Below are positions 7,272-28,790 of a stretch of DNA of 51,900 nucleotides, one piece after another. The stretch spans positions 1 through 51,900 of the IMG/VR virus record IMGVR_UViG_3300038301_000356, one strand, 5' to 3'. The notes under the pieces were generated by a model. The model searched no databases. It saw nothing but the letters and a program-made list of their open reading frames with translations, and had not been told where the DNA came from. The position numbers and the translations under genes are program-made. Every line of letters begins with the position of its first letter. The first letter of the stretch is position 1. Origin of the DNA: a virus.

Positions 7272-7541
7272 ATGAGATTTATAGGAAAAGTAGAATATTT
7301 GACTCCAAAAATTTTAAAACAACGTCCGCAGAAGTTATCATACTATAGAGTAACAGTCGTTACTGATGATGGCACTGTGGAAAACTTGGCATTAACACCG
7401 ATAGAGTATAAGAAAGCACAGAAACGAGCAGGGAAAGGCGTAATGTATATAAAGCCTTCATTATTTATGAGGATATATGCAGCATTTGCAGCTATTTTTG
7501 GTACAAGCTATGGTAAAATACCAAAAAAACGAAGAAGGTGA
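7272..7541 (+). CDS. Basic hypothetical protein, possible membrane contact
   Basis: 89 residues. The N-terminal half looks like a small beta domain (YRVTVVTDDGTVENLAL), and the C-terminal half holds a hydrophobic stretch (FMRIYAAFAAIFG) ending in KKRRR. GGAGG at 7258-7262 favours ATG 7272; ATG 7268 is out of frame. Function unknown. A single amphipathic or membrane helix is possible. Confidence 0.6.
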   Translation: MRFIGKVEYLTPKILKQRPQKLSYYRVTVVTDDGTVENLALTPIEYKKAQKRAGKGVMYIKPSLFMRIYAAFAAIFGTSYGKIPKKRRR

Positions 7542-7550
7542 TAATTATGT

Positions 7551-8933
7551 ATGAGACAACAACAGAAAGGCAGTATGACCGCTAAAAAGATTCAAGTACT
7601 AGATACCAGCGTACTTCTAACAGACGCTAACGCTCTTCTCTCTTATGGTAATAACGATATCGTTTTGCCCCTGAAGGTATTGGAAGAGATTGACAAGCAT
7701 AAGAAACGTCAAGACACAGTAGGCGCTAACGCTCGTCGCGTCATCCGAATGTTGGATGGGCTACGAGAAAAGAAGAGCTTGCTGGAGGGCGTACGCCTCG
7801 GACGGGGCAAAGGCTTGTTACATGTTCGTGGATATTCATCAACGAACATAGGCATTCTACCGCAAGACCTAGACCCCACTGTACCAGACCATATCATTAT
7901 TGCATGTGCCATGGCTGAGCAACAAAAAAATCCCAAGCGACAGGTTGTGCTGGTCTCAAACGATATTAACATGAGAGTCATTAGCGATTCTGTTGGTTTG
8001 CGCTGCGCAGGCTACAAATCTGTTAATAACGTTGTCGAAGATCGCGACAAACTTTATTCTGGATTTGCAGAACACTTGGTCGATGAAGAAATGATTGATC
8101 GTTTTTATGATGGCGATGAGATCATATTGGATCAAGAAGAAAAGAAGCTCAAGTTTATGGCAAACCAATATGTTATGTTGGTATCCAGCGCGAATGAAAA
8201 GAAGACTGCTTTGTGCAAGTATGTAAACGAACTGACACCGATTAAGCCAGTCGTACGTTACAAAAACGGAGTCTGGGGGGTCAACGCCCGAAACAAAGAA
8301 CAGGCATTCGCTCTTGACATGTTGATGAATCCGGATATCCCTATCATTACATTGGTCGGTAAGGCTGGTTCAGGGAAGACTCTGTGTGCTATCGCCGCAG
8401 GTATCGAACAGACAATCGGAATGGACGGAGCAGGCGCTGGACGCCGGGAAAACCCATATAAGAAGCTGATTGTCTCTCGCCCCGTACAGCCTCTCGGGAA
8501 AGACATTGGATTCCTCCCGGGTTCTTTGGAAGAGAAGATGACTCCATGGCTTGCTCCCATTCAGGACAACTTACAGTTTCTGATGGGCAATGACAAACTT
8601 ACTCTTGAGACATACATTGAAAGTGGCAAGATTGAGATTGAAGCATTAACCTATATCCGTGGACGCTCGATTGCAAACGCATTCATTATTATTGATGAGG
8701 CGCAGAACTTGTCGGTTCACGAACTCAAGACAATCATTACCCGCGTCGGTGACAACACTAAGATTGTCCTAACTGGCGATATCGAGCAAATCGATAATAT
8801 GCATATTGACGAGACAACGAATGGCTTGGCATATGCAGTAGAAAAGTTTAAGTCCCATGCGATTGCAGGGCATATTACGCTCACAAAGGGCGAACGATCA
8901 AGAGTAGCGACACTCGCTGCAAAGATTTTATAA
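7551..8933 (+). CDS. phoH: PIN-PhoH (PhoH2-type) protein
   Basis: 460 residues. The N-terminal PIN nuclease domain starts at IQVLDTSVLL (Asp18) and has further acidic positions. The C-terminal PhoH ATPase has Walker A GKAGSGKT (270-277) and Walker B IIIDEAQ (Asp382-Glu383), plus LTGDIEQID. PhoH2 proteins are described as RNA helicase-RNases in bacteria; phoH-type genes are very common in marine phages. ATG 7575 would give the usual short N-terminus (MTAKKIQVLD), so the first eight residues may not be translated. An exact-consensus promoter follows the stop by a few bases. Confidence 0.92.
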   Translation: MRQQQKGSMTAKKIQVLDTSVLLTDANALLSYGNNDIVLPLKVLEEIDKHKKRQDTVGANARRVIRMLDGLREKKSLLEGVRLGRGKGLLHVRGYSSTNIGILPQDLDPTVPDHIIIACAMAEQQKNPKRQVVLVSNDINMRVISDSVGLRCAGYKSVNNVVEDRDKLYSGFAEHLVDEEMIDRFYDGDEIILDQEEKKLKFMANQYVMLVSSANEKKTALCKYVNELTPIKPVVRYKNGVWGVNARNKEQAFALDMLMNPDIPIITLVGKAGSGKTLCAIAAGIEQTIGMDGAGAGRRENPYKKLIVSRPVQPLGKDIGFLPGSLEEKMTPWLAPIQDNLQFLMGNDKLTLETYIESGKIEIEALTYIRGRSIANAFIIIDEAQNLSVHELKTIITRVGDNTKIVLTGDIEQIDNMHIDETTNGLAYAVEKFKSHAIAGHITLTKGERSRVATLAAKIL

Positions 8934-8941
8934 AAAAACAG

Positions 8942-8970
8942 TTGACAAACCACACAAATGTGGTTATAAT
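8942..8970 (+). promoter_or_regulatory. Consensus promoter with inverted repeat in spacer
   Basis: TTGACA (8942-8947), 17-base spacer, TATAAT (8965-8970). The spacer is almost wholly a perfect 7-bp inverted repeat, AACCACA-caaa-TGTGGTT (8948-8965), whose last T is also the first base of the -10 box. A dimeric regulator bound there would block RNA polymerase. Transcription should begin near 8977, ahead of an AGGAG at 8981-8985 and ATG 8995. Confidence 0.85.
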
Positions 8971-8994
8971 ATAGATGTTTAGGAGAAAAGCAAA

Positions 8995-9372
8995 ATGGCT
9001 GAAATCAAATGGCTAACAAATGGAATGGTAGATACGGGGGATGCGCAAGCAGAACTTCCACCGGATGCACTCGCGCCGAGTCCGGAAATGACAGCGACGG
9101 TTGAAAAGGTTAATCCGATGAAGGAGTGGCTTGTGGGTTATGTCGGTGACATTCTTAACCCCACAGACGGCAACGTTACAACAGAAATGATTATTCATGC
9201 AATGAGTATTGAGTTTCCAGAGTTTCTTTTGGCGTTAGCAGAAGAGAACTGGATGCGCGGATATGCTCAAGCACTTCATGATGCAGAGAAAGGATTGGAC
9301 TTGATAAACTCGGGTGAGATTGAAATCTCTCCCGGGGCAACCACAACAGAAAATGACGACAAAGTACCCTGA
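8995..9372 (+). CDS. Acidic hypothetical protein
   Basis: 125 residues, rich in Glu and Asp, Pro-containing N-terminal region, a central helical part (WLVGYVGDILNP...MIIHAMSIEFPEFLLALAEENWMRGY) and a disordered-looking C-terminus. No recognised motif. It is the first gene behind the promoter at 8942-8970 with a good AGGAG site, so expression is probably high and early. It overlaps the next gene by 20 bases. Confidence 0.75.
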   Translation: MAEIKWLTNGMVDTGDAQAELPPDALAPSPEMTATVEKVNPMKEWLVGYVGDILNPTDGNVTTEMIIHAMSIEFPEFLLALAEENWMRGYAQALHDAEKGLDLINSGEIEISPGATTTENDDKVP

Positions 9373-10126
9373 TGGTCTGCGTGAATATATAAAGCTTTCT
9401 AGTTCTTCTTCGTTTCTAAACGAAACCAAGGCTGCACAGACTAAACTGCATAATCATATTGACGTATACATTAAAGACTCTCTACCAAAGGGTTTTGATA
9501 TTGAGGGCGTATTGACAAAGATTGAGCAAGTCCTCCCAGCATCGTTGATGCAGGATATTGATGCGGTCATTATTGGCGAGTTTCAAATGCTTAAAGCTAG
9601 AGATTTAGACGCAGTATATGAAGACGGTGCCATTTACTTGACAAACGACCAAAAAAGCGAAGAAGATATGTTTGATGATGTAGTTCATGAGGTCGCTCAT
9701 GCGGTTGAGAAGAACTTCGGAATGGAAATCTTTGGAGATGGTCTGGTAGAAACAGAATTCATCAATAAGCGCCGCGTACTGTACAGCACTCTGAACGCAC
9801 ACGGCATTAAAAATCTATCTATGTATGACTACATCAACCCGGATTATGATAAAAAGTTCGATAAGTTCTTGTATAAAACTGTAGGATATGATAAACTAAG
9901 ACATCTGGTTACGGGCTTGTATCTGTCGCCATATGCCGCAACCTCTTTATCTGAATATTGGGCAAATGGGTTTGAGGCGATTTTTTCGGGTGAAGATCCG
10001 AAATATATTAAAAAAACATGTCCCGCTCTCCATAGTAAAATCATGGAGATCATACAAGCAGGTCAATTCCAACCTGAGGACGAAATGGAAGAAGAAGAAC
10101 AAGGATGGATTAACGATGGCTACTAA
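9353..10126 (+). CDS. Zincin metalloprotease, HEVAH type
   Basis: 257 residues from ATG 9353, where MTTKYPD begins within the end of the upstream gene; the longer start at 9314 adds a residue run coded in that gene's other frame and is not favoured. HEVAHAVE (112-119) supplies two His zinc ligands and the catalytic Glu113. SEYWANGF has Glu201 as a likely third ligand, as in lethal-factor/ImmA-like gluzincins. The spacing and the SEY-x-A helix point to that clan. The C-terminal tail is very acidic. Its target, and whether it is virion-borne, are unknown. Confidence 0.65.
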   Translation: MTTKYPDGLREYIKLSSSSSFLNETKAAQTKLHNHIDVYIKDSLPKGFDIEGVLTKIEQVLPASLMQDIDAVIIGEFQMLKARDLDAVYEDGAIYLTNDQKSEEDMFDDVVHEVAHAVEKNFGMEIFGDGLVETEFINKRRVLYSTLNAHGIKNLSMYDYINPDYDKKFDKFLYKTVGYDKLRHLVTGLYLSPYAATSLSEYWANGFEAIFSGEDPKYIKKTCPALHSKIMEIIQAGQFQPEDEMEEEEQGWINDGY

Positions 10127-10448
10127 CTATGCCTATGATATTAAAGTGAGTAAAGACAAGCAGCACATTACGCTTGCAGTGGAACTACCCAAACGAGTAA
10201 AGGCTCGCGACCCCATTTTAGAAATGGATGACCAAGCAGCGATCAACATCATTAGAGATAATGGTTTTGGTACATATGAACTGGTTAAGGGTGGCACCCG
10301 GCTGACAAACTGGGTTTCCCGCGAAGGGAAGGGCGGTAACAGCACTGGCGAATGGCTCTTTGAGGCACCTGCCAAGAGCACTGCTAAGAAGACTACTGCT
10401 AAGAAGACTGCTACTAAGAAAGCAACCCCAAAAACAACTGATAGCTGA
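10116..10448 (+). CDS. Protein with histone H1-like Lys/Thr/Ala tail
   Basis: 110 residues. A compact N-terminal domain of about 85 residues (MATNYAYDIKVSKDKQHITL..., ending GEWLFEAPA) is followed by a tail made of AKKT-type repeats (STAKKTTAKKTATKKATP). Such tails occur in bacterial histone-like proteins and bind nucleic acids non-specifically. The start at 10116 overlaps the upstream stop by 11 bases; upstream in-frame sequence from 9933 is in another gene's territory. Function is unknown, DNA binding is inferred. Confidence 0.7.
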   Translation: MATNYAYDIKVSKDKQHITLAVELPKRVKARDPILEMDDQAAINIIRDNGFGTYELVKGGTRLTNWVSREGKGGNSTGEWLFEAPAKSTAKKTTAKKTATKKATPKTTDS

Positions 10449-10455
10449 GGTTATC

Positions 10456-11214
10456 ATGAGTCACATTTCGTACTCTGAACTAAAAAATTGGAATACCTGC
10501 GCCTTTTATCACAAGCTTGTCCATATCGACAAGCTAAAGGGCTTTAAGGGTAATGAGTTTACTGCATTTGGAACTGCTATTCACACTATCTGTGAGAAGA
10601 AGCTGCTTCAGGAGGCTGTAAGCGATGAACTATTTATAGAAGAACTCAAGAAGAACATTGCAAGTCTTGACGATGATATTAAAGTCGATAAGAAACTTGT
10701 TGTTAACATGGCAAGTCAAGGGAAGCAAATCATTCCCGAGATCGACGATGCCTTGGGAGACTACTTTGAAGAGTACGAGGTTGTTTCTACCGAGGAGCAG
10801 CTAATGGAGCCTATCGACGGCTACGACCTTAACTTCAAGGGGTTCATCGATGCGGTACTTAAGACCAGCGATGGCAAGTATCACATCATGGATTGGAAGT
10901 CATGTTCGTGGGGTTGGAATGCCCAACGCCGAAGCGAGCCCATGACCACATATCAGTTGACTTTGTACAAGCACTTCTATGCGATTAAGCACGGGATTGA
11001 CCCAAAGTTAATTGAGACTCACTTTGCGCTTCTTAAGCGAACCGCTAAGAAGAACAGGGTTGAGATTTTTAGAGTTACGAGCGGTCCTAAGAAGACCGAA
11101 AATGCATTGGGGCTATTGCACCGAGCATTAGAAAATATTATCAAGGGCAACTACATCAAGAATCGCTTGTCGTGTCAACGGTGTGCATTCTATAAAACTG
11201 CAGATTGTCCGTAA
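10456..11214 (+). CDS. PD-(D/E)XK nuclease, Cas4/RecB-like
   Basis: 252 residues. Motifs in order: GTAIHTICE (His43), GFIDAVL (Asp132), then IMDWKS (Asp146, Lys148) and a QLTLYKHF helix, the RecB/Cas4-type exonuclease core. Cys15 plus Cys240, Cys243 and Cys251 near the C-terminus fit the one-plus-three cysteine pattern of 4Fe-4S Cas4/AddB-type enzymes, though the last spacing (CX2CX7C) is slightly wide. RBS GAGG precedes ATG 10456. Phage Cas4-like proteins may act in recombination or DNA end processing. No CRISPR array or cas1/cas2 is nearby. Confidence 0.8.
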   Translation: MSHISYSELKNWNTCAFYHKLVHIDKLKGFKGNEFTAFGTAIHTICEKKLLQEAVSDELFIEELKKNIASLDDDIKVDKKLVVNMASQGKQIIPEIDDALGDYFEEYEVVSTEEQLMEPIDGYDLNFKGFIDAVLKTSDGKYHIMDWKSCSWGWNAQRRSEPMTTYQLTLYKHFYAIKHGIDPKLIETHFALLKRTAKKNRVEIFRVTSGPKKTENALGLLHRALENIIKGNYIKNRLSCQRCAFYKTADCP

Positions 11215-11229
11215 AAGGAAAAAAACTAA

Positions 11230-12504
11230 GTGAGAAAAATCAAAGTATTAACAATCTCTGATCACCCTTTATCACCTTCGGGTGTAGGGACTCAGACCAA
11301 ATATATGATTGAAGCGCTGCTCCAGTCTGGCAAATTTGAAGTTGTCAGTTTGGGCGGCGCTATCAAGCATCCGGATCACAAGCCGCAGAAGACAGAACAG
11401 TATGGAGACTTGTGGAAGATCTATCCAGTGGATGGTTACGGCACTGCAGACGCAGTGCGTTCTATTCTTCGGACAGAGCGCCCAGATATACTCTGGTTTA
11501 TGACCGATCCACGCTTCTTCCCGTGGCTTTGGATTATTGAGCAGGAAGTCCGACCGCTGGTCCCTATGATTTATTATCATGTTTGGGACAACAAGCCGTA
11601 CCCCATGTTCAATAAGCGATTCTATGATTCAAACGATAAGGTTGTAACCATCTCTAAGGTTACAGATGAAATCGTACGCAATGTGTCGCCCGATGTAGAT
11701 ACCGAGTATCTTCCTCACGCTGTTGACGGGTCAATCTTTGCTCCAATGTCGCAAGACAGCCTGAAGGAATTCCGGAATGGGTTTTATAACATCCCTGAGG
11801 GCGAGGATGACAACAAGGTTACGTTCTTCTGGAATAATCGTAATGCCCGCCGTAAGCAGAGTGGTAGTCTTATCTGGTGGTTCAAGGAATTCCTAGATGA
11901 TGTTGGGCACGATAAGGCTCGATTGGTTATGCACACAGACCCCCACGACCAACACGGTCAAGACTTGGTAGCAATCATGAACCAAACTGGTATGGTTGAC
12001 GGACAGGTGCTGCTTTCCACACAGAAGATCTCACCGGATCGTTTAGCTATGATGTATAACGCTGCTGATTGCACGGTTAACATTAGTGACGCAGAAGGCT
12101 TTGGCTTGGCAACACTGGAATCACTTTCTTGTGGTACTCCTATCATTGTCACCATGACCGGCGGCTTGCAGGAGCAGGTTACAGACGGGACAAACTGGTT
12201 TGGCATCGGGCTTGAGCCCTCTTCAAAGGCAGTTATTGGCTCCCAAGACGTACCTTATATCTACGAAGACAGGATTGGTTCTCAGCAGCTTGTTTCGGCT
12301 CTTAAGAAGGTATATGAGATGTCTTCGGCAGACCGCTCCAAGTTGGGGCTAGCCGGTCGAGAGCACACGCTCAATAACTATAACTTTCAGGTATATACTG
12401 ACCGCTGGGTTAGCCTGTTAGAAGAAGCATATGAACACTATGGTTCTTGGAACCACCCAGACGGTCGCAAAAACTATAAAGGATGGGAGCATACAGAGCT
12501 ATGA
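11230..12504 (+). CDS. GT-B glycosyltransferase (GT4-like)
   Basis: 424 residues from GTG 11230. The N-terminal SDHPLSPSGVGTQTKYM is the Gly-rich acceptor-side loop of GT-B enzymes. The C-terminal half has ISDAEGFGLATLESLSCGTPIIV, the E-x7-E donor-site motif of GT4. It starts the sugar block. No membrane segment. It probably uses a nucleotide sugar to extend a glycan; donor unknown. The stop overlaps the next start by 4 bases. Confidence 0.85.
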   Translation: MRKIKVLTISDHPLSPSGVGTQTKYMIEALLQSGKFEVVSLGGAIKHPDHKPQKTEQYGDLWKIYPVDGYGTADAVRSILRTERPDILWFMTDPRFFPWLWIIEQEVRPLVPMIYYHVWDNKPYPMFNKRFYDSNDKVVTISKVTDEIVRNVSPDVDTEYLPHAVDGSIFAPMSQDSLKEFRNGFYNIPEGEDDNKVTFFWNNRNARRKQSGSLIWWFKEFLDDVGHDKARLVMHTDPHDQHGQDLVAIMNQTGMVDGQVLLSTQKISPDRLAMMYNAADCTVNISDAEGFGLATLESLSCGTPIIVTMTGGLQEQVTDGTNWFGIGLEPSSKAVIGSQDVPYIYEDRIGSQQLVSALKKVYEMSSADRSKLGLAGREHTLNNYNFQVYTDRWVSLLEEAYEHYGSWNHPDGRKNYKGWEHTEL

Positions 12505-13781
12505 GTGATAACAGACCAAAGGTGATAGTCGTTGGACCGGCATTAACATTGTCCGGATACGGAGAGCAAACTCGATTTGCTTTACGCTCTCTGCGATCAC
12601 AAGAAGACCAATACGATATCTACTTGAATACTACTAGCTGGGGTCAGACCGGCTGGATTCATGAAGACAACGAAGAGCGAGAATGGCTGGACAATATTCT
12701 GCATAAGACGGTACAGCACAACCAACAAAACGGAGAGTATGATATATCTTTGCAGGTAACCATTCCCAATGAGTGGCAGAAGATCGCACCGGTCAATGTC
12801 GGGTACACCGCTGGGATTGAAACAACCCGGGTCGCCCCTCAATGGATCGAGAAGTCCCGAGATATGGACCGCATTATTGTGGTCTCAAACCATGCCAAGG
12901 AAGTATACGAAGGTACGGAATACACAATCATGGATCGCCAGACCAATGAAAAGATTGGTGTCGCTAGCGTTCAAGTCCCAGTCACTGCTGTCAACTATCC
13001 GGTTAAGAGTTTTGAATCAGTTGATCTCGGACTGGAGTTCAGCACAGATTTTAACCTTCTGTGCGTAGCCCAGTGGGGTCCGCGCAAGAATGTACCTAAT
13101 ATGATGAAATGGTTCATCGAAGAGTTTAATGACAACGAGGATGCTGGGCTGGTGCTTAAGGTCTTCCATATGAATGCCTCCAACATGGACCGCGACTTTG
13201 TTAAGAAGCAATTGGCTGAAGCGCTGAGTCAGTTCCCGAATAGGAAGTGCAAGATTCACTTGGTTCATGGTCACATGTCTGAGGCAGAAATGCATACTCT
13301 ATATCGACACCCTCAGATCAATGCCCTCGTCACTTTGACACACGGAGAGGGTTTCGGGCTTCCGCTATTTGAGGCAGCATACGAAGGTCTTCCAGTTATC
13401 GCTCCTGCGTGGAGTGGGCAGATGGACTTTTTGTTTGCCCCCAGCAACAGCAAGAAAAGCGACAAGCTTCGACCTCACTTTCTTAAGGTGGAACACACCA
13501 TGGTTGACATTCCCGACGATGTAGTGTGGGAAGGGGTATTGGTGAAAGGTTCACAGTGGTGTGAGCCAACGGAAGACAGCGCGAAGAAGCAAATGCGGGC
13601 ACTGTATAAAGACTCCTCCCGTTATAAGGGACAGGCAACTCGACTCAAGAAGCACCTACTTGCCAACTTTACTGCTGAACAAAAGTATGCAGAGTTTTGC
13701 GAGGCATTCGCCGGCGATCAGAAGTTAGACATCGATGCATGGCTTACTGAGTTGGAGGCTGGCGTTGAAGAGCACGAATAA
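12501..13781 (+). CDS. GT-B glycosyltransferase (GT4-like)
   Basis: 426 residues from ATG 12501, coupled to the upstream stop (ATGA). The N-terminal VVGPALTLSGYGEQTRF and the C-terminal THGEGFGLPLFEAAYEGLPVIAP place it in the same fold as the previous gene, with the E-x7-E pair. The two share the overall plan but not close sequence. The last 17 bases are shared with the next small gene. Confidence 0.83.
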   Translation: MSDNRPKVIVVGPALTLSGYGEQTRFALRSLRSQEDQYDIYLNTTSWGQTGWIHEDNEEREWLDNILHKTVQHNQQNGEYDISLQVTIPNEWQKIAPVNVGYTAGIETTRVAPQWIEKSRDMDRIIVVSNHAKEVYEGTEYTIMDRQTNEKIGVASVQVPVTAVNYPVKSFESVDLGLEFSTDFNLLCVAQWGPRKNVPNMMKWFIEEFNDNEDAGLVLKVFHMNASNMDRDFVKKQLAEALSQFPNRKCKIHLVHGHMSEAEMHTLYRHPQINALVTLTHGEGFGLPLFEAAYEGLPVIAPAWSGQMDFLFAPSNSKKSDKLRPHFLKVEHTMVDIPDDVVWEGVLVKGSQWCEPTEDSAKKQMRALYKDSSRYKGQATRLKKHLLANFTAEQKYAEFCEAFAGDQKLDIDAWLTELEAGVEEHE

Positions 13782-14028
13782 ATACGAAGTTGGACAGTTT
13801 GTCCGATGGTACGAAGCATATGCAGAAGGTATCATGGGTCGCGATGCCGGCTTCGGCGTTGTAACTGAAGTTCGTCAGCATCACGTTTATTCCGACCATA
13901 TAACTTATGGCGTCCTGCGAAACAAGCATGGCGATGTTATGTGGTTTGAAGAAGGGCATGTAGAGGACAAAGAAGATTTTAAGGAAAGAATGAATGAGCA
14001 GAAAGCCAACAATAGCATTTGTAGCTGA
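13765..14028 (+). CDS. Small hypothetical protein, TTG start
   Basis: 87 residues. No ATG is suitably placed; TTG 13765 follows a perfect GGAGG at 13754-13758 with a 6-base spacer, so TTG decides the start. The sequence has a KYEVGQFVRWYEAY start, a central beta part (GFGVVTEVRQHHVYSDHITYGV) and a helical, charged C-terminus. It resembles small SH3-like phage proteins such as that at 7037 only in pattern. It overlaps genes on both sides. Confidence 0.6.
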   Translation: MKSTNKYEVGQFVRWYEAYAEGIMGRDAGFGVVTEVRQHHVYSDHITYGVLRNKHGDVMWFEEGHVEDKEDFKERMNEQKANNSICS

Positions 14029-14845
14029 TTTCTTTGCTGACGAGATCAGCGGCGGAGGAGAAGTGAATAACGATGAACTTATTAAGCTTCTTTCTGCCGA
14101 TTTTCATATCATGAAAGTCAAGAGTAGAAACTTAGACCCTGTTGCCATCGAGTATGGACTGGTAGACTATTATATTGTTTCTAACTTTCTTCAACTACCA
14201 TATCAAAGTTATAAAAAGCTGGTTGAAAAAGCGAAGTACATTATTTACGAGCACGATCATAAATACGTGCGTAATCGTAACCCAGCAGAGTACCCAGATT
14301 ATCAGGTACCCCGGTCGGATATTGTTCACTATGAGCTTTATAAGAATGCTGCAGCAGTATTGTGCCAATCAGATTTCCACGCGGATATCGTACGGAAGAA
14401 CTTAGGGTTGGAAACCATCAAGAGTTTGGGCGGCAACCTTTGGTCGCCAGAAAGCCTGTCCCTCATGAAAGACTTGTCAAGTCAAGAGAAGGTGGACACC
14501 TGTGCGATTATGCAGACTGACAACTGGCACAAGAATACTGTTGGAGCCGTACGCTACTGCAGGATGAAGCAACTAAAATATGAACTGATCGCTCCTTGTG
14601 ATTATCATGAGTTCCTGCAAAGGCTCGGAAGCTATAAAAGAATTGTGTTCTTCCCACAGACACCAGAGACACTTTCCCGCATCGCAGTTGAAGCTAGGAT
14701 GATGGGTATGACAGTTATTACAAATCAGAATGTTGGCGCCACTAAAGAAAAGTGGTTTGGGCTCAAGGGCACAGAACTTATTGAGGTAATGCATCAGAAA
14801 CGAGAAGAGATTCCGCAGATCGTGAAGGGGATATTAAATGGGTAA
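13994..14845 (+). CDS. GT-B-like glycosyltransferase
   Basis: 283 residues. FVADFFADEISGGGEVNNDEL is a GT-B N-terminal loop, VLCQSDFHADIV a typical acceptor-domain helix, and FFPQTPETLSRIAVEARMMG the C-terminal donor-side motif with a Glu pair, though weaker than in the two upstream genes. It is shorter than usual (about 380 residues). The start overlaps the previous gene by 35 bases, and its end overlaps the next gene by 8. Confidence 0.7.
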   Translation: MSRKPTIAFVADFFADEISGGGEVNNDELIKLLSADFHIMKVKSRNLDPVAIEYGLVDYYIVSNFLQLPYQSYKKLVEKAKYIIYEHDHKYVRNRNPAEYPDYQVPRSDIVHYELYKNAAAVLCQSDFHADIVRKNLGLETIKSLGGNLWSPESLSLMKDLSSQEKVDTCAIMQTDNWHKNTVGAVRYCRMKQLKYELIAPCDYHEFLQRLGSYKRIVFFPQTPETLSRIAVEARMMGMTVITNQNVGATKEKWFGLKGTELIEVMHQKREEIPQIVKGILNG

Positions 14846-16286
14846 CCATTTTAAAATCATTGTTCCGTTTTACAACGTAGAGAAGTGGATTAAAGTTTGT
14901 ATTCGTTCGGTCAAGGCGCAGGACTATAAAGATTTCCAATGTATCCTATTGGATGACATGTCAACAGATGGTACAGCAAAGATTGTACGCGAAGAGATCG
15001 GTGATGACCCTCGCTTTATATTTATTGAGGTGCAAGAAAAAGCATATGCTCTTAAGAATATTTACGATGGCATTAAGATCGCAGACCCCTCCCCGGAAGA
15101 CGTTATTGTAACCCTTGACGGTGATGACTGGCTGTCTCGCAGAGACGTATTGTATGCTTTAGACCAAATCTATAAGAACTCAGATTGCAGAATGACTTAC
15201 GGTAGCTACGCCGAATATCCATCTGGGATGAAGGGTAAGTTTGCGAAGCAAATCCCTAACGAATGGGTAGCTAATAGTGTCTTAAGAAGATCCCCGTGGC
15301 AGGCTTCTCACTTGCGTACGTTTAAGCACGACCTGTGGAAGCGCATTGACCCTGCAGATCTTAAGGACACTGATGGCAACTTTTACCGCATGGCATGGGA
15401 CTTAGCTTTCATGTTCCCAATGCTGGAGATGGCTGGAGCAAAGAGCACTCACGTAACTGAACCTTTATACGTTTACAATATGTCAAACCCGCTAAACGAT
15501 CATAAGATTGATAACGAGTTGCAGATCCGAACGGAGAATGAGATTCGTGCCAAGCGTCCTTATGCAACACTCCCGCAGGAACATGGGCAATACCCATCGA
15601 CCTGCATTGTCTCAGAGGCAAATCGGTTTGTGTATACTTTCATTCCAAAGGTCGCATGCAGCAGTCTTAAAATGGCGCTGGCGACCAAGTTCGACGTAGA
15701 AGTGAATATCAGCACCGAAGCTAAAGAGGATGTATTTAACGACTTACACTCTTTTGAGGCGATGCACGCTGCCAATTGGCCAATCGCATCTAAGCATTTG
15801 ATGGCTACAGACCGTGTGTGGGATTATCTAAAGTTCGCAATAGTTCGCAATCCATGGGATCGACTTGTCTCTTGCTATAAGAATAAGATTCTTGCGTCTG
15901 GAGATACAAACGATTTTTATGAGAATGGCGTCCACCGCGCTTTGGTAAAAAACTACGGAGACTTATTTCAGCCTGACATGACGTTCTCTGATTTCGCAGA
16001 TGCGGTCTGCGCAATTCCAGATGAGTTGGCGGAAGACCATTTCAGGTCACAACATACATTCATCACACATCGCGGTGAAGTATTCGTTAACCATGTTGGA
16101 AAGCTGGAGAACATCGAAGAAGAATGGGCGTATTTGTGTGCCAACGTCAATATTGACAACGAGCTTGGGAACATTAACGTTTCCTCGAACTCCGGCGCCT
16201 ACAAAGATTACTATACTGACAACCTCCGTGCCAAAGTTGCGGAGAGATATCAAGAAGACATTGAGATGTTCGACTATGATTTCTAA
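14838..16286 (+). CDS. GT2 glycosyltransferase-sulfotransferase fusion
   Basis: 482 residues with two domains. Residues 1-240: GT-A/GT2 (FKIIVPFYNVEKWI, LLDDMSTDGT, and LDGDDW with Asp94, Asp96 and Asp97 as the DxD region). Residues 255-482: carbohydrate-type sulfotransferase with FIPKVACSSLK (269-278, 5'-phosphosulfate loop of PAPS binding) and IVRNPWDRLVS (335-345, 3'-phosphate motif). The protein could add a sugar and sulfate it, or sulfate the neighbour sugar. PAPS would come from the host. No internal ribosome site was seen at the domain join, so a single polypeptide is likely. Confidence 0.87.
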   Translation: MGNHFKIIVPFYNVEKWIKVCIRSVKAQDYKDFQCILLDDMSTDGTAKIVREEIGDDPRFIFIEVQEKAYALKNIYDGIKIADPSPEDVIVTLDGDDWLSRRDVLYALDQIYKNSDCRMTYGSYAEYPSGMKGKFAKQIPNEWVANSVLRRSPWQASHLRTFKHDLWKRIDPADLKDTDGNFYRMAWDLAFMFPMLEMAGAKSTHVTEPLYVYNMSNPLNDHKIDNELQIRTENEIRAKRPYATLPQEHGQYPSTCIVSEANRFVYTFIPKVACSSLKMALATKFDVEVNISTEAKEDVFNDLHSFEAMHAANWPIASKHLMATDRVWDYLKFAIVRNPWDRLVSCYKNKILASGDTNDFYENGVHRALVKNYGDLFQPDMTFSDFADAVCAIPDELAEDHFRSQHTFITHRGEVFVNHVGKLENIEEEWAYLCANVNIDNELGNINVSSNSGAYKDYYTDNLRAKVAERYQEDIEMFDYDF

Positions 16287-17084: not shown

Positions 17085-17999
17085 ATGAGTTTTAAGATTT
17101 ACTTTATGCCCTCACGCGGCATGGACAACATGAGCCAGAATGAACTGCTGGAGCGAGCCAAGCGGCAAACGCCCGGGAACTCTGGCGTGTGGAAAGATAT
17201 GAAGGGAGTGCCGGATATAAACGATGCCGACTACTACGTTATCTTGGAAGCAACAGATCACCAGACACCGGATGCTAACAAGACTTTCTATTTTAGTCGT
17301 GAGCCCCGGGGTGTCGGTCGAGGTATGGGACCAATGGATCCACGTATCAGGCGGTTCTCCTTCCTGACCGGTGAATCTTACTTTTCTAGCTTCTGGTACT
17401 GCGAGCGCTCCGGGTATACAAAAACTTATGATCAACTGCTCAAGCTACAGCCCCAGAAAAAGAACAAAGGAATGTCTTGCACTGTTTCTGAAAAGACATG
17501 GCTACCGGGCATGGATACCCGCGTACAGTTTGTTAAAGAACTACAAAAGCGCCACGCTGATAAGTTTGATTTATACGGACGAATCAGTAAACTTCCAGAA
17601 TTAACTGATTTTGTGCTTGAAATTAAAGACGATGACAAGTATAATACTCTTAAAGACTACCGTTATTGCTTGGCTTTCGACAATGGAACTTACCCAAATT
17701 ATTTCGCAACACAATTCACAGATACATTACTGTCTTGGGCTTTGCCTATTTATAATGTTGCACCCGGAATCTCCAACATTCATGAGTTCTTTCCCGAGGG
17801 CTCTTACATTCCGTTCGATGCTCGAAATCATAATGAAATAGAACGGATTATTAAGCTTCTCGAAGAGGACAACTTTGAAGATCATATTCCGGCGATGACT
17901 GAGGCGAGAGAGCTAATCCTCAACAAGTATAATCTATGGAATACAATTTATGAAGCCATCACTATCGGCAAAAACACATGGTATGCGAATGAAGGATAG
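17085..17999 (+). CDS. GT10 fucosyltransferase-like enzyme
   Basis: 304 residues. The signature region is residues about 195-245: YCLAFDNGTYPNYFATQF, then LPIYNVAPGISNIHEFFPEGSYI, matching alpha-1,3-fucosyltransferase (GT10) donor sites, which bind GDP-fucose. The N-terminal half is less conserved, as is usual. GDP-mannose dehydratase at 27819 could feed it a GDP-6-deoxyhexose. No transmembrane anchor is seen. The start is 2 bases after the sulfotransferase stop. Confidence 0.8.
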   Translation: MSFKIYFMPSRGMDNMSQNELLERAKRQTPGNSGVWKDMKGVPDINDADYYVILEATDHQTPDANKTFYFSREPRGVGRGMGPMDPRIRRFSFLTGESYFSSFWYCERSGYTKTYDQLLKLQPQKKNKGMSCTVSEKTWLPGMDTRVQFVKELQKRHADKFDLYGRISKLPELTDFVLEIKDDDKYNTLKDYRYCLAFDNGTYPNYFATQFTDTLLSWALPIYNVAPGISNIHEFFPEGSYIPFDARNHNEIERIIKLLEEDNFEDHIPAMTEARELILNKYNLWNTIYEAITIGKNTWYANEG

Positions 18000-21720: not shown

Positions 21721-22430
21721 AACATCTTTTTTCAATCACCTGTCGATTTGACCCGGCGAACCCGGTCGTGCTTCCGTGCGTTCAAAGCATTCGCGAGCAC
21801 CATCCGGATTCTCCCATTCATATCGTAGACAGTAACTCAGAGGACAAATCATATTATGGAGCAGTTAAACAGTTTGGCGCAAAGGTTGAAGACATTGGGA
21901 ACCAAAGCCTTACAACTGGAAATATTTGGCACACCTATGAGAACTATCCTGATTACGATTATTATTATTTTCTTCATGATTCTATGCTAATCAAGGACGG
22001 GCTCTTGGATCTTCTAGAAGAAGATGTTGTCGCCTTGCGCTACTTCCGTTCGTGGAATGGAGTGGGCTGGACACCAGCAGAGGTGCCAACCGGAGACAAT
22101 GGATTTGTTTATGATGAAACATACAACTGGGCGAACACACAGCTTCTGGCGAAGACAAGTTATAAGCCAGAGTTGGGTCATCGATTCGCCGCCCTCTTTG
22201 GACCGATGCTCATGTGTAAGCGCACTGTCTTAGATAAGCTCAAGGCTGCAGGGTTCGACAAGATTCGACCCACAACCAAGCGCCAGTCTGAAGCGATGGA
22301 GCGTGTGTGGGGAATGGTTTTAAATATGGAGGGCTATGACTTGTCAGAGCTTTCTGTTCAGGGATACTGCTATGATCCCGGTTATCAAGAAACTCATAGA
22401 TTTGAGAAAATATTTTTAGGAAGACAATAA
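21717..22430 (+). CDS. GT-A-like glycosyltransferase
   Basis: 237 residues. FSITCRFDPANPVVLPCVQSI, IHIVDSNSEDKSYY and DYYYFLHDSMLIKDGLLDLL form a GT2-type N-terminal core, with a HD-S motif in place of a plain DxD. The C-terminal LFGPMLMCKRTVLDKL is a typical later helix. Length is short for GT2. The stop shares one base with the next start (TAATG). Confidence 0.6.
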   Translation: MKHLFSITCRFDPANPVVLPCVQSIREHHPDSPIHIVDSNSEDKSYYGAVKQFGAKVEDIGNQSLTTGNIWHTYENYPDYDYYYFLHDSMLIKDGLLDLLEEDVVALRYFRSWNGVGWTPAEVPTGDNGFVYDETYNWANTQLLAKTSYKPELGHRFAALFGPMLMCKRTVLDKLKAAGFDKIRPTTKRQSEAMERVWGMVLNMEGYDLSELSVQGYCYDPGYQETHRFEKIFLGRQ

Positions 22431-23818
22431 TGGTAGACAATAGTGAAATCTTAGTCATCTTCGATTTAGATGGCGTCCTCGTAGATGCTCGCGAGCTACA
22501 CTACGAGGCTTTAAACAGAGCGTTAGCATCAGTGGACGGAAAGTACATTGTGAATCGTGCTGAGCACCTATCAACATATGATGGGCTGCCCACGTCAAAG
22601 AAGCTGAACATGCTCACAAAGAACAAGGGCTTGCCGAAGGAACTACACAATACTGTGTGGCAGCGCAAGCAGGACATGACTTACAAGATCATCTCCGAGG
22701 AGATGGAGTATGACACACGCATGCGTGGGGTGCTCAAGCAACTCCGCGATGACGGATATAGAATCTGCTGCGCATCGAACTCTATCAGAGAATCCGTGAA
22801 GATGATGCTTCTCAAGAAGGGACTCTTGGAGTATGTCGAGTTTATTTATTCCAACCAAGATGTCAAGGCTCCAAAGCCCAGCCCAGAAATGTATCTGAAG
22901 TGCATGATCAAAGCTGGCATCGGACCCAAGTATACTCTTATTGTAGAGGACTCACACATCGGTCGTAAGGCAGCACTCAGTTCAGGTGCTTCTTTATGCG
23001 CGGTGCGTAACCCTGACGACGTGACCTATGAGAAGGTCAAGGGTGCTATCGAACATAACTTTAAATCTCAAAAAATTATTACACCATGGCAAGGAGGCAA
23101 AATGAACGTATTAATTCCAATGGCGGGTGCCGGAAGTCGATTTGAAAAGGCAGGGTATACTTTCCCGAAGCCGCTTATCGATGTCAACGGTAAACCAATG
23201 ATCCAACTAGTGACGGAGAACTTGAACATCGAGGCTCGTCACATTTACATCGTGCAAAAGTCGCACTATGAGAAATATAATCTTCAACAGTTATTAAACC
23301 TCATCTCACCGGAATGTGTGATTGTACAGGTGGACGGCATTACTGAAGGTGCAGCGTGTACTACATTGTTGGCAAAGGAGTTTATCAATAACGATGAGCC
23401 TCTGGTCATCTCAAACTCCGATCAGGTTTTTGAGTGGGACAGCAACGAGTTTATGTATTCTATGGTTGCAGATGAGGTAGACGGAGGTATCCTTACCTTT
23501 GAAGCGACTCATCCCAAGTGGAGCTTTGCGAAGCTTGGTGACGATGGCTTTGTTACAGAGGTCGCAGAGAAGAATCCCATTAGCAATATTGCGACGGCTG
23601 GAGTTTATTACTTCCGCAAGGGCTCTGATTATGTAAAGTATACTGAGCAAATGATTGAGCGAGATATTCGTACTAATAACGAGTTTTATGTTTGCCCTGT
23701 ATACAATCAGGCATGCGAGGACGCCCAGAAGATTAAGGTTTTCCACATTGATAGAATGTGGGGTCTCGGAACACCCGAGGATCTAAACCACTATCTTCAG
23801 CACCACCCTAGGGAATAG
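22430..23818 (+). CDS. HAD phosphatase-sugar nucleotidyltransferase fusion
   Basis: 462 residues. Residues 1-215: HAD phosphatase (IFDLDGVLVD with Asp12 and Asp14, CASNS, and IVEDSHIGRKAA). Residues 225-462: nucleotidyltransferase (MNVLIPMAGAGSRFEKAGYT, then FPKPLIDVNGKPMI, ISNSDQVFEW and TAGVYYFRKG), the sugar-1-phosphate NTP transferase pattern. Inside the ORF, AAGGAGG (23091-23097) sits 4 bases before in-frame ATG 23102, exactly where the second domain begins, so a free nucleotidyltransferase may also be made. Substrate inferred to be a hexose or heptose phosphate. Confidence 0.85.
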   Translation: MVDNSEILVIFDLDGVLVDARELHYEALNRALASVDGKYIVNRAEHLSTYDGLPTSKKLNMLTKNKGLPKELHNTVWQRKQDMTYKIISEEMEYDTRMRGVLKQLRDDGYRICCASNSIRESVKMMLLKKGLLEYVEFIYSNQDVKAPKPSPEMYLKCMIKAGIGPKYTLIVEDSHIGRKAALSSGASLCAVRNPDDVTYEKVKGAIEHNFKSQKIITPWQGGKMNVLIPMAGAGSRFEKAGYTFPKPLIDVNGKPMIQLVTENLNIEARHIYIVQKSHYEKYNLQQLLNLISPECVIVQVDGITEGAACTTLLAKEFINNDEPLVISNSDQVFEWDSNEFMYSMVADEVDGGILTFEATHPKWSFAKLGDDGFVTEVAEKNPISNIATAGVYYFRKGSDYVKYTEQMIERDIRTNNEFYVCPVYNQACEDAQKIKVFHIDRMWGLGTPEDLNHYLQHHPRE

Positions 23819-25186: not shown

Positions 25187-25647
25187 TGTATATAGCCCAC
25201 AGAGGCAACACAGACGGTCCTAAGCCCGAACTGGAGAACAGCCCCGACTACATCGACAAAGCCCTGTCAGAAGGCTTCTACGCCGAAATAGACGTTAGAA
25301 AGGGGAATATGCTCGGACAGTTTATCATGGGTCATGACTACGGCGAACACAAGTTGCCTATTGAATGGTTTGAAGAACGCCGAGGGCATCTGTTCATCCA
25401 CGCAAAAGACTTAGAAACATACACATACTTTACTCGCGAAAAAGGATGGAACGTGTTCTGGCATCAAGAGGATGATTATACATTAACCTCTGCCGGCATG
25501 ATTTGGGCATACCCGGGAAAAACATTAAACGAGAAAACCATTTGCGTTATGCCAGAAAACGTGGTATACTCTAGAGTAGACTTATCCCGATGTTTGGGAA
25601 TATGCAGTGATTATGTCACGAATTATAGGATGGAATACGGTACATGA
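25183..25647 (+). CDS. GDPD/PLC-like phosphodiesterase, short
   Basis: 154 residues. IAHRGN (His6, Arg7), LENSPDYIDKAL, YAEIDV (Glu35, Asp37) and MGHDYG (His51) supply the catalytic set of glycerophosphodiester phosphodiesterases. The protein is shorter than the usual 240 or so residues, so part of the TIM barrel is missing or divergent. Members in polysaccharide clusters may act on a sugar phosphodiester. Overlaps on both sides by 4 bases. Confidence 0.65.
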   Translation: MMYIAHRGNTDGPKPELENSPDYIDKALSEGFYAEIDVRKGNMLGQFIMGHDYGEHKLPIEWFEERRGHLFIHAKDLETYTYFTREKGWNVFWHQEDDYTLTSAGMIWAYPGKTLNEKTICVMPENVVYSRVDLSRCLGICSDYVTNYRMEYGT

Positions 25648-26759
25648 GAGTTCCACAGTTTATGCCTTACATTGGCATGGAAGAATATGAAGCTATTAAA
25701 AGCTGCTTTGAAGACAACTGGATTACAGAAGGTCCGAAGGCAGCAGAGTTTAGCGAGAAATTGCTTGAAATAATTGGAAGTAAATACGGTGTTTTCGCTC
25801 CAAATGGCACTTTGTCGCTTTACCTCGCTTTACGGGCGATGGGTATCGGTCCCGGCGATGAAGTCATTGTGCCAGACTTCACATTTATTGCCTCCGCAAA
25901 CGCCGTCGAAATGGTTGGTGCCCGCCCCGTATTTGTTGACGTTGGATGTCACGACTTGCAACTTCGCATTGACGATTGCGAGCGTGTACGCACCGACAAA
26001 ACTAAGGCAATTATGCCGGTTCATATCTATGGATTTGCAGCAAACATGACGGAGATCATGAAGTACGCAGAAGAAAGGAACCTAATGGTTATCGAAGACG
26101 CTGCTCAGGCACTAAGTATTAAGTGGGACGGTCAAGGCTGCGGAAGCTTTGGAGACACCGGATCCTTTTCTTTCTTTGCAGACAAGACTTTAACCACCTG
26201 CGAGGGCGGCTTTGTAACGACAGACGACGAAGAGATCTATAATAAACTTCTTCTTCTGAGAAACCAAGGTCGTCTCCATAGAGGCACTTTTGAACACCCA
26301 GCAATCGGATACAACTTTCGGATGAATGACGTACAAGCGGCAATCGGTTTGGCTCAGCTAAAGAAGCTGCCCGAAATCATCGAGAAAAAGCAGAAAAACT
26401 ACAGCCTTTATAAAGAAGCGCTAGCAGATGTTGAAGAGGTTGAGCTTTTGTCTCCGGCTGAAAAGGTAGAGCCGTATGTGCCGTTCCGAGTTATCTTGCG
26501 CACCCGAAGCCATCCGAGCGAACATTTGATGGGCTTTATGTCTATGAATGGCGTTGAGCCAAGAACCTTTTTTCACCCGCTCCATCTACAGCCCTGTTTT
26601 GACATCTGGGCTGATGACGAGCGCCACAACCGCAAGCATTTTGAGGTTGCCGAACACGCCCGTAACCATGGCGTGTGCCTGCCCTCTTTTGCCGCGCTAA
26701 CAGAGAAGCAGATTTTATATGTCTGCGATGTAATTAAAGAATTCTACAGGAGAAAATGA
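25644..26759 (+). CDS. DegT/DnrJ/EryC1-type aminotransferase
   Basis: 371 residues. DNWITEGPKAAEF, APNGTLSLYLALRAMGIG, VIEDAAQAL and SFFADKTLTTCEGG (Lys181 as the PLP-binding lysine), and YNFRMNDVQAAIGLAQLKK are family hallmarks. The overall pattern is like GDP-perosamine synthase, which makes a 4-amino-4,6-dideoxy sugar from the product of GDP-mannose 4,6-dehydratase, encoded at 27819. The substrate assignment is an inference. Confidence 0.88.
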   Translation: MRVPQFMPYIGMEEYEAIKSCFEDNWITEGPKAAEFSEKLLEIIGSKYGVFAPNGTLSLYLALRAMGIGPGDEVIVPDFTFIASANAVEMVGARPVFVDVGCHDLQLRIDDCERVRTDKTKAIMPVHIYGFAANMTEIMKYAEERNLMVIEDAAQALSIKWDGQGCGSFGDTGSFSFFADKTLTTCEGGFVTTDDEEIYNKLLLLRNQGRLHRGTFEHPAIGYNFRMNDVQAAIGLAQLKKLPEIIEKKQKNYSLYKEALADVEEVELLSPAEKVEPYVPFRVILRTRSHPSEHLMGFMSMNGVEPRTFFHPLHLQPCFDIWADDERHNRKHFEVAEHARNHGVCLPSFAALTEKQILYVCDVIKEFYRRK

Positions 26760-27178
26760 TGATTCATGTCCATTCTGCAGCAGACCCCGGCACGCTGCTG
26801 CTGGTTATTAACCGGGGCGACGAAATCGGTGTCAACCGCGCCGATCTTAGTCCAGACGATCAATACTTACAGTGTGCAACCAAGAAGCTTTCCAAGGGAA
26901 CCACCTTTGCACCTCACCGCCACAACGAGATAATCCGAACGACAGATATTACCCAAGAGGCTTGGGTGTTTTTGAAGGGTCGCGTTGCTGCTAGGTTCTG
27001 GGATATCGACGATCAATTGATTTATGAGACAGAGTTGGGCGAAGGCGATGCCGCAATTGTGTTCCGTGGTGGTCACAGCTTTGAGGTTTTAGAAGAGGGC
27101 ACTATTTTATATGAGTTCAAGACCGGTCCCTATTTTGGCGTCGAAAAAGACAAGACTTATATCGAGGAGAAACAATGA
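26756..27178 (+). CDS. Cupin-fold protein (WbuC/FdtA-like)
   Basis: 140 residues. FAPHRHNEIIRTT and VFLKGRVAARFWDID...ELGEGDAAIVFRGGHSFEV form the two cupin motifs, with HRH as possible metal ligands. Proteins of this type occur in sugar gene clusters, some as isomerases of 4-keto-6-deoxy sugars (FdtA) and some without known activity (WbuC). It lies between the aminotransferase and a dioxygenase gene, with 4-base overlaps. Confidence 0.7.
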   Translation: MMIHVHSAADPGTLLLVINRGDEIGVNRADLSPDDQYLQCATKKLSKGTTFAPHRHNEIIRTTDITQEAWVFLKGRVAARFWDIDDQLIYETELGEGDAAIVFRGGHSFEVLEEGTILYEFKTGPYFGVEKDKTYIEEKQ

Positions 27179-27822
27179 AAAAAAAGACATATGATGTAGA
27201 GAATTACCCTCTCCGCGCATTGGTTTGCGAGGCTTTGGGGCATGAGGATTTGGAGAACCTACATAAACATTATACCTACGAACCATTTACTATGGAAAAC
27301 AACTCCAATACCGTGTTGCATGACCGGTTTTATGACAAGCTCCGATCAGGTTGGTCAGACTTCCATGACACTTATGATCTCTTTGTCAAAGAAGTCATTG
27401 TACCGATTTACGGAAGTAGAGACTTTATTTACCAAACCCTCCCTACGTTCCGTGTACATTTGGTGGGCAACTGGGCAGTGCCCGAATTCCATTGTGATTC
27501 ACAACCCGGATATAATCACCCAGAGGGAGAGATCAACATCCAGATTGCTGTGACCGATATGTTTGGTACGAACGCAACATGGAGTGAATCTGTGCCGGGT
27601 CTTGGTGACTTTGCGCCAATAGAAATGAATCAGGGCGAGTTTACAGTCTGGGACGGGGGGAAGCTCAATCACGGCAACATGATTAATGATTCGGGTCAGA
27701 CCCGCGTATCATTTGATTTTAGAATTTTACCACTTAACAAATACGACCCATCAAAGGCGAAGAAGTCAGCTACCCGTGGCACTTCTTTTACTGTTGGTGG
27801 ATACTACAAGGAACTTAAATGA
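27175..27822 (+). CDS. 2-oxoglutarate/Fe(II) dioxygenase-like (StrG-like)
   Basis: 215 residues. EFHCDSQ (His106, Asp108), KLNHGN (His166) and TRVSFDFR (Arg177) give the HxD...H iron triad and the 2-oxoglutarate Arg, with the second His and Arg 11 residues apart. The surrounding sequence resembles streptomycin-biosynthesis StrG homologues. It could oxidise a sugar or a lipid-linked intermediate. Spacing with neighbours is by 4-base overlap. Confidence 0.72.
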   Translation: MKKKTYDVENYPLRALVCEALGHEDLENLHKHYTYEPFTMENNSNTVLHDRFYDKLRSGWSDFHDTYDLFVKEVIVPIYGSRDFIYQTLPTFRVHLVGNWAVPEFHCDSQPGYNHPEGEINIQIAVTDMFGTNATWSESVPGLGDFAPIEMNQGEFTVWDGGKLNHGNMINDSGQTRVSFDFRILPLNKYDPSKAKKSATRGTSFTVGGYYKELK

Positions 27823-28790
27823 GCAAAAAGAAAGCATTAATCACAGGAATCGCAGGACAGGATGGAAGCTACCTATCTGAACTGCTGTTAGAAAAGAACT
27901 ACGAGGTCCACGGAATCATCCGAAGGTCATCTGTTTCAGAGAATCAAGACAGCCGCATTCAGCACTTGCAGGGGCAGATTCACACGCACTACGGGGATCT
28001 AACTGATTACCCTTCTCTGGTCCGTATTGTGTCGGAAACCCGCCCTGATGAGATTTATAACCTTGGAGCTATGAGCCATGTACGAATCAGTTATGACATG
28101 CCATCGTTTACTATCCAAACAAATGCTTTGGGTGTGCTGAATATGTTGGAAGTCTATCGCTCTTTCGTTCCTAATGCTGGCTTCTATCAGGCAAGCTCTT
28201 CAGAGATGTTCGGCAACTCTGTTGACGCCGATGGCGTACAGCGCCTCACTACCCCCATGAACCCTGTCAGTCCTTATGGCTGCGCAAAGGTCATGGGGTA
28301 CAACTTGGTTAGACATTATCGCCATGCATACGGACTTCACGCATGTAATGGTATTCTGTTTAATCACGAATCCCCTCGACGCGGCTCAAACTTTGTGACA
28401 AACAAGGTTGTGAAGACTGCTGTGCAAATCAAAAAGGGGCTGAGAGATAAACTTGAATTGGGTAACCTAGACTCCTATCGAGACTGGGGACACTCAAAAG
28501 ATTATGTTCGTGCGATGCACATGATTATGAACCATCATGAGCCGGACGAATTTATTGTTGCAACTGGGGAGACACATTCTGTAAGAAATCTTGTAGAAAG
28601 AGTCTTCACCAAGTTGGAAATGAACTACGAAGATTATGTCATTCAGAATCCAAAGTATATGCGTCCTGAAGAACTTAAGTATCTTAAGGGGGATCCTTCT
28701 AAGGCTGTAGATGTCTTGGGCTGGAAACCAGAATATACATTTGAAACACTTCTGGATGACATGATCGACCGATGGGTAAAGGAACTATAA
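27819..28790 (+). CDS. gmd: GDP-mannose 4,6-dehydratase
   Basis: 323 residues. ITGIAGQDGSYLSELLLEK is the NAD(P)-binding loop, ASSSEMFG carries the catalytic Ser/Glu region, and SPYGCAK holds Tyr153 and Lys157 of the YxxxK pair. NHESPRRGSNFVT is a strong Gmd signature. It converts GDP-mannose to GDP-4-keto-6-deoxymannose. No fucose synthase (GMER) is seen in the window, so a route through the DegT aminotransferase is more likely than GDP-fucose unless the host supplies the reductase. Confidence 0.95.
   Translation: MSKKKALITGIAGQDGSYLSELLLEKNYEVHGIIRRSSVSENQDSRIQHLQGQIHTHYGDLTDYPSLVRIVSETRPDEIYNLGAMSHVRISYDMPSFTIQTNALGVLNMLEVYRSFVPNAGFYQASSSEMFGNSVDADGVQRLTTPMNPVSPYGCAKVMGYNLVRHYRHAYGLHACNGILFNHESPRRGSNFVTNKVVKTAVQIKKGLRDKLELGNLDSYRDWGHSKDYVRAMHMIMNHHEPDEFIVATGETHSVRNLVERVFTKLEMNYEDYVIQNPKYMRPEELKYLKGDPSKAVDVLGWKPEYTFETLLDDMIDRWVKEL

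Follow-up and report, generated by a model that had tools for sequence, protein, structure and literature searches.

A putative glycosyltransferase-sulfotransferase fusion enzyme of a contractile-tailed phage and the variable gene slot behind its GT2 domain

Results

The window analyzed herein is a stretch of 51,900 nucleotides from a viral metagenomic contig (IMG/VR record IMGVR_UViG_3300038301_000356), and it carries a cassette of glycan-related genes that extends from 11.2 to 28.8 kb (Table 1). One gene of this cassette is a single open frame with an ATG start whose 482-amino-acid product matches two Pfam families. Residues 7-114 match Glycos_transf_2 with an E value of 5.4e-20 (72.4 bits; cut-off, 23.3), and residues 256-481 match Sulfotransfer_2 with an E value of 4.2e-27 (96.3 bits; cut-off, 22). 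Because both scores are well above the curated cut-offs, neither domain is a chance match. An earlier, sequence-only reading had described a GT-A domain with a DGDD motif and a PAPS sulfotransferase on one ORF, and both the Pfam assignments and the positions of the motifs agree with that description.

Table 1. Positions in the window of the fusion gene, its parts, and other genes of the glycan cassette
Feature	Position	Strand	Basis
GT4 glycosyltransferase, conserved core operon	11230..12504	+	Pfam; synteny
GT4-like glycosyltransferase, conserved core operon	12483..13781	+	Pfam just under cut-off; PHROG 2170 E 3e-16; synteny
Conserved upstream partner, GT-B-like by inspection only	13994..14845	+	no Pfam match; synteny
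GT2-sulfotransferase fusion gene, 482 aa	14838..16286	+	ORF and Pfam; two full-length relatives
GT-A (GT2) "hub" domain, residues 1-242	14838..15563	+	Pfam Glycos_transf_2; extent taken from ~80 relatives, alone or with other fusion partners
DGDD motif, residues 94-97 (metal/nucleotide-sugar site)	15117..15128	+	alignment of 82 relatives
D188, candidate catalytic base	15399..15401	+	invariant in 82/82 GT2 relatives
Linker between domains, residues 243-262	15564..15623	+	least conserved stretch, pN 0.28-0.40
Sulfotransfer_2 domain, residues 256-481	15603..16280	+	Pfam; AlphaFold2 model; PDB matches
5'-PAPS-binding loop IPKVACSSLK	15642..15671	+	alignment of 52 relatives
3'-phosphate-binding motif RNPWDRLVS	15846..15872	+	alignment of 52 relatives
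Second, separate sulfotransferase, 268 aa	16276..17082	+	PHROG 3347; counterparts in L002, L003 pass Pfam cut-off
GT10 fucosyltransferase-like gene	17085..17999	+	Pfam
HAD phosphatase and nucleotidyltransferase fusion (sugar activation)	22430..23818	+	
DegT-type sugar aminotransferase	25644..26759	+	
GDP-mannose 4,6-dehydratase	27819..28790	+	

The GT2 half of the protein has the DXD-type metal motif and conserved acidic residues characteristic of its family. The motif LDGDDW contributes D94, D96, and D97, each of which is identical in all 82 aligned relatives, and the equally invariant D188 is a candidate for the catalytic base of an inverting GT-A enzyme. This domain also matches PHROG 841, a GtrB-like O-antigen conversion family (E 2.6e-8).

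Judged from an alignment of 52 relatives, the sulfotransferase half retains the Lys and Ser of the 5'-PSB loop and the Arg and Ser of the 3'-PB motif that characterize Sulfotransfer_2 proteins. K271, R337, and S345 are each present in 52 of 52 sequences, and S276 in 49. Loss of PAPS-binding residues, a possible objection raised in the sequence-only reading, is therefore not seen. H310 was considered as a conserved catalytic histidine and rejected, given that its column is not conserved, though a His lies nearby in 46 of the 52 relatives.

Structure prediction was applied to the first member of this alignment, and the resulting AlphaFold2 model of the sulfotransferase domain is a confident one (pLDDT 91.4, pTM 0.88). 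All 50 PDB entries listed by VIA-align for this model are sulfotransferases, headed by a heparan sulfate 6-O-sulfotransferase with PAP (Z 9.1, 4.5 Å, 184 residues). The best Foldseek match is also a sulfotransferase (E 0.019), with none below E 0.001, and a search of the sequence profile against PDB sequences gave no match. Although Z values of 8-9 are moderate, the uniform list of PDB entries agrees with the sequence match and points to a sulfotransferase fold. Among phage protein families, the domain matches PHROG 3347 (E 1.2e-18), which is labeled as a phage "galactose-3-O-sulfotransferase," a name that is an annotation rather than a tested activity; unlike the fusion, this family consists of one domain of 219 positions. 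A model of the full-length fusion, built from three sequences, reached a pLDDT of 32.

The gene that follows overlaps the fusion ORF by 11 nt and is more divergent. It had been read as a second sulfotransferase, and this assignment holds even though the protein itself scores weakly (Sulfotransfer_1 E 0.019; PHROG 3347 E 6e-5) and a single-sequence search returned no relatives, because its syntenic counterparts in two other viral contigs (L002 and L003, see below) are above the Sulfotransfer_2 cut-off. A related phage contig, L005, contains four Sulfotransfer_2 matches within ~6 kb (9484-15636).

In the nearest relatives, the order upstream of the fusion is preserved as PhoH, an unknown, PDDEXK, GT4, GT4, GT-B-like, and GT2. 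The remainder of the cassette includes a methyltransferase, a WbuC-like cupin (below the curated cut-off), and several unknowns. Baseplate wedge proteins, PhoH, and a late sigma factor surround the cassette, which indicates a contractile-tailed phage; judged by baseplate protein, the closest cultured phages show only ~30% identity to it. Two other genes of the cassette deserve mention. The HAD-nucleotidyltransferase fusion is 96-97% identical in L002 and L003, compared to mostly 75-90% for neighboring genes, and thus has possibly been exchanged recently. Beside the GDP-mannose dehydratase gene, the protein encoded at 27175-27822 has no Pfam match and carries an HxD...H-like pattern, such that by eye it resembles a 2-oxoglutarate/Fe dioxygenase.

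A search of IMG/VR for further proteins combining GT2 and sulfotransferase domains, as the sequence-only reading had proposed, recovered full-length fusions that are 78-79% identical to that of the window in two viral contigs, L002 (51.7 kb) and L003 (141 kb). The glycan genes and the flanking structural genes are in identical order in all three. Among these sequences, pN is 0.11-0.15 in both domains, rising to 0.28-0.40 in the linker, whereas pS is 0.66-0.85 and near saturation. Low pN at near-saturated synonymous sites indicates that both halves of the fusion are maintained, and we conclude from these comparisons that purifying selection acts on both domains. One might suspect an assembly artefact or a decaying gene, given that the window is a metagenomic contig. 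However, the presence of the full-length fusion in two further contigs excludes an assembly join between the domains, which had been named as a concern, and with an intact ORF under purifying selection we regard either explanation as almost certainly wrong. The window encodes a real, maintained, and probably bifunctional enzyme, in which we infer catalysis by either domain.

To place the fusion in a broader context, we examined what occupies the slot at the 3' end of GT2, defined as the gene directly after GT2 or the fused C-terminus of the GT2 protein. The census covers 80 relatives of the GT2 domain plus the window, for a total of 81 contexts with 67 distinct GT2 sequences. Proteins resembling GT11 fucosyltransferases, as assigned by Pfam, occupy the slot in 33 contexts (30 adjacent and mostly encoded by separate, overlapping genes; 3 fused, in L006, L007, and L028). 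A second module, herein called X, is found in 12 contexts, and sulfotransferases are found in three, all of them fused; the remaining 33 contexts have something else.

Module X comprises ~420 amino acids (P0001; for example, L004:8736-10028) and has no match in Pfam or PHROG. It is fused to GT2 in eight contigs (L004, L008, L014, L015, L019, L025, L030, and L032) and separate in four (L024, L031, L053, and L054). In L014 (7137-9977), L015, and L032, a protein like the conserved upstream partner is additionally fused ahead of GT2, creating one polypeptide of 946-953 amino acids that includes upstream partner, GT2, and X. Two conserved features of X, a GSHR/GAHR motif and acidic motifs late in the sequence, suggest that it is an enzyme.

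A phylogenetic tree places the three sulfotransferase fusions in one clade with support of 100/100, and the GT11 and X fusions require several changes. Comparisons of DNA locate the boundary of similarity precisely. For example, L005 and L006 share 79% identity across the core, ending at the last GT2 codons, and no shared DNA is detectable from there until ~7.4 kb further. Among more than 100 pairs with different modules, the DNA match never extends beyond GT2 codon 252; in some pairs with the same module, it continues past GT2 for kilobases. GT2 is the last gene of a conserved operon, and at its 3' end the resemblance between phage genomes ceases. These patterns are most simply explained if phages exchange a variable cassette whose left edge coincides with the GT2 3' end, with fusion resulting when a module arrives in frame.

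Sulfotransferases of this type are widespread in viruses. One scan of IMG/VR found relatives of the sulfotransferase domain in 195 stretches, nearly all as single-domain ORFs of ~190-300 amino acids, and phage sulfotransferases are already listed in the literature (PMC10580990, PMC13079714, PMC8290583), where their role has been described as unclear (PMC10580990). The sequence-only reading, in which phage-made sulfated glycans were expected to be unusual, was therefore overstated on this point. The nearest cellular sulfotransferase, 43% identical in the best segment, comes from a Hydrococcus MAG, where its gene stands alone. No GT2-sulfotransferase fusion was present among the matches listed for 292 genomes of the phylum of this MAG, with up to five candidates per genome scored. 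Likewise, non-exhaustive searches found no fusion of the GT2 hub to Sulfotransfer_2 outside the clade formed by the window, L002, and L003.

Other glycosyltransferases have nevertheless been joined to sulfotransferases, and such fusions are already known in cells. A Bacteroidia MAG encodes proteins that, like the window's fusion, place the glycosyltransferase at the N-terminus: a single polypeptide with GT25 and Sulfotransfer_2 in L117, and proteins with Glyco_tranf_2_4/GT92 and several sulfotransferase domains in L195. These belong to other glycosyltransferase families and do not match the phage GT2 hub. A viral contig, L247, encodes a protein of 503 amino acids with Glyco_tranf_2_4 and Sulfotransfer_2 in the same order of domain types, but its glycosyltransferase is of a different family and its sulfotransferase domain scores under the Pfam cut-off. 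Further parallels are the three GT2-GT11 fusions, which share the GT2 domain and the C-terminal position of the partner, and differ in that the partner is fucosyltransferase-like. In L195, the proteins described above lie in tandem (7472-13734; 957 and 1131 amino acids, with GT92/GT2-like and several sulfotransferase domains).

Discussion

We propose, with somewhat more confidence than doubt, that the fusion is bifunctional and caps glycans, first adding a sugar and then sulfating the end so created, and that it arose by cassette exchange. The three upstream transferases would begin an oligosaccharide, onto which the N-terminal GT-A domain would transfer one sugar from a nucleotide sugar. The C-terminal domain would then move sulfate from PAPS to a hydroxyl of the newly added end sugar. 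Because no APS kinase was found in nine phage records, which are possibly incomplete, the PAPS would have to be made by the host. The gene itself may have formed by in-frame insertion of a sulfotransferase gene at the position that a GT11-like or another module holds in relatives. We infer which step comes first and which sugar is transferred, and can only guess at the donor, the acceptor, and the position that is sulfated.

That GT2 adds and the sulfotransferase caps is suggested by the common slot and by the tested precedent of A064R from chlorovirus PBCV-1, whose fused domains add a rhamnose, then a second rhamnose, and then methylate that end sugar (PMC9614988). The two systems would be alike in arrangement, in that virus-encoded, fused domains act in turn on one glycan end. 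They differ in that A064R transfers methyl rather than sulfate and serves a virus of an algal host.

It might be argued instead that the domains are active but uncoupled, such that a chance in-frame join aids only co-expression while the sulfotransferase acts on another substrate. The linker is short and poorly conserved, the GT11 enzymes in the same slot are mostly separate proteins, and L005 has a GT11 gene and several sulfotransferases that are all separate. However, the fusion has been kept across near-saturating synonymous divergence, and fusions at exactly the same slot arose with three different modules, so we consider uncoupled activities unlikely. Still less probable is that the cassette hypermodifies phage DNA by decorating modified bases with sugars and sulfate. 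PMC10829341, citing Iyer 2013, mentions phage systems of glycosyltransferases and sulfotransferases directed at DNA bases, and the start of the operon adjoins a PDDEXK nuclease. Against this, the nine phage records, which may be incomplete, contain no member of the thymidylate synthase/dCMP-hydroxymethylase family (PF00303; control positive), and with it no dCMP hydroxymethylase of the kind that marks T4-type DNA glucosylation; sugar-nucleotide genes and many glycosyltransferases also better suit an oligosaccharide. A search for TET/JBP gave no match in the phage records, and none in the control either.

The next question is where a capped glycan would reside. One answer is the host surface (O-antigen or capsule), whose decoration would prevent superinfection or alter recognition. 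This target is consistent with a bifunctional enzyme and is a substantial possibility, though one we are inclined to doubt. Such a role has been proposed for glycosyltransferases of marine myophages (PMC7029224), the cassette varies strongly between phages, and the GT2 domain has the GtrB-like match noted above. However, a Polysacc_synt flippase (PF01943), a GtrA flippase (PF04138), and the lipid-sugar initiator Bac_transf (PF02397) were all absent from the nine phage records, each with a positive control and with the limit that these records may be incomplete. In addition, no cassette protein, the fusion included, has a clear membrane span, and the GtrABC-type arrangement of a GtrA flippase beside a membrane-anchored GtrB is not seen. 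Host enzymes could supply the missing functions. Taken together, the lack of a flippase, an initiator, the thymidylate synthase family, and a membrane span fits cytoplasmic glycosylation of protein better than modification of the envelope or DNA. The likeliest single acceptor is therefore a protein of the phage virion that receives its glycan in the cytoplasm, an assignment that we make tentatively and that is the weakest step of the model. Virion glycosylation has been reported for mycobacteriophages in work cited in PMC11256854.

If the capping model is right, it provides a concrete case of a bacterial virus that makes a sulfated glycan by itself, and the fusion offers a single testable protein with which to ask what phage sulfotransferases do. 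The site of exchange is more interesting than the fusion enzyme. We speculate, while allowing that this broader proposal may well prove wrong, that the 3' end of GT2 is a standing exchange site where fucosyltransferase-like, sulfotransferase, and other capping modules are swapped and repeatedly fused. Every phage lineage would thereby come to have a bifunctional enzyme of its own and, on its particles, a glycan with its own end decoration, which in this case is sulfate. Such a swap point would represent a natural series of bifunctional enzymes in which one half is constant and the other variable.

A stand-alone relative of the GT2 hub was also observed in a genome from the phylum of the Hydrococcus MAG (L196:523-2226), sharing 90 of 241 aligned residues with the window. 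It adjoins a GT11-like ORF on the opposite strand, and the GT2/GT11 pair may thus occur in cells too.
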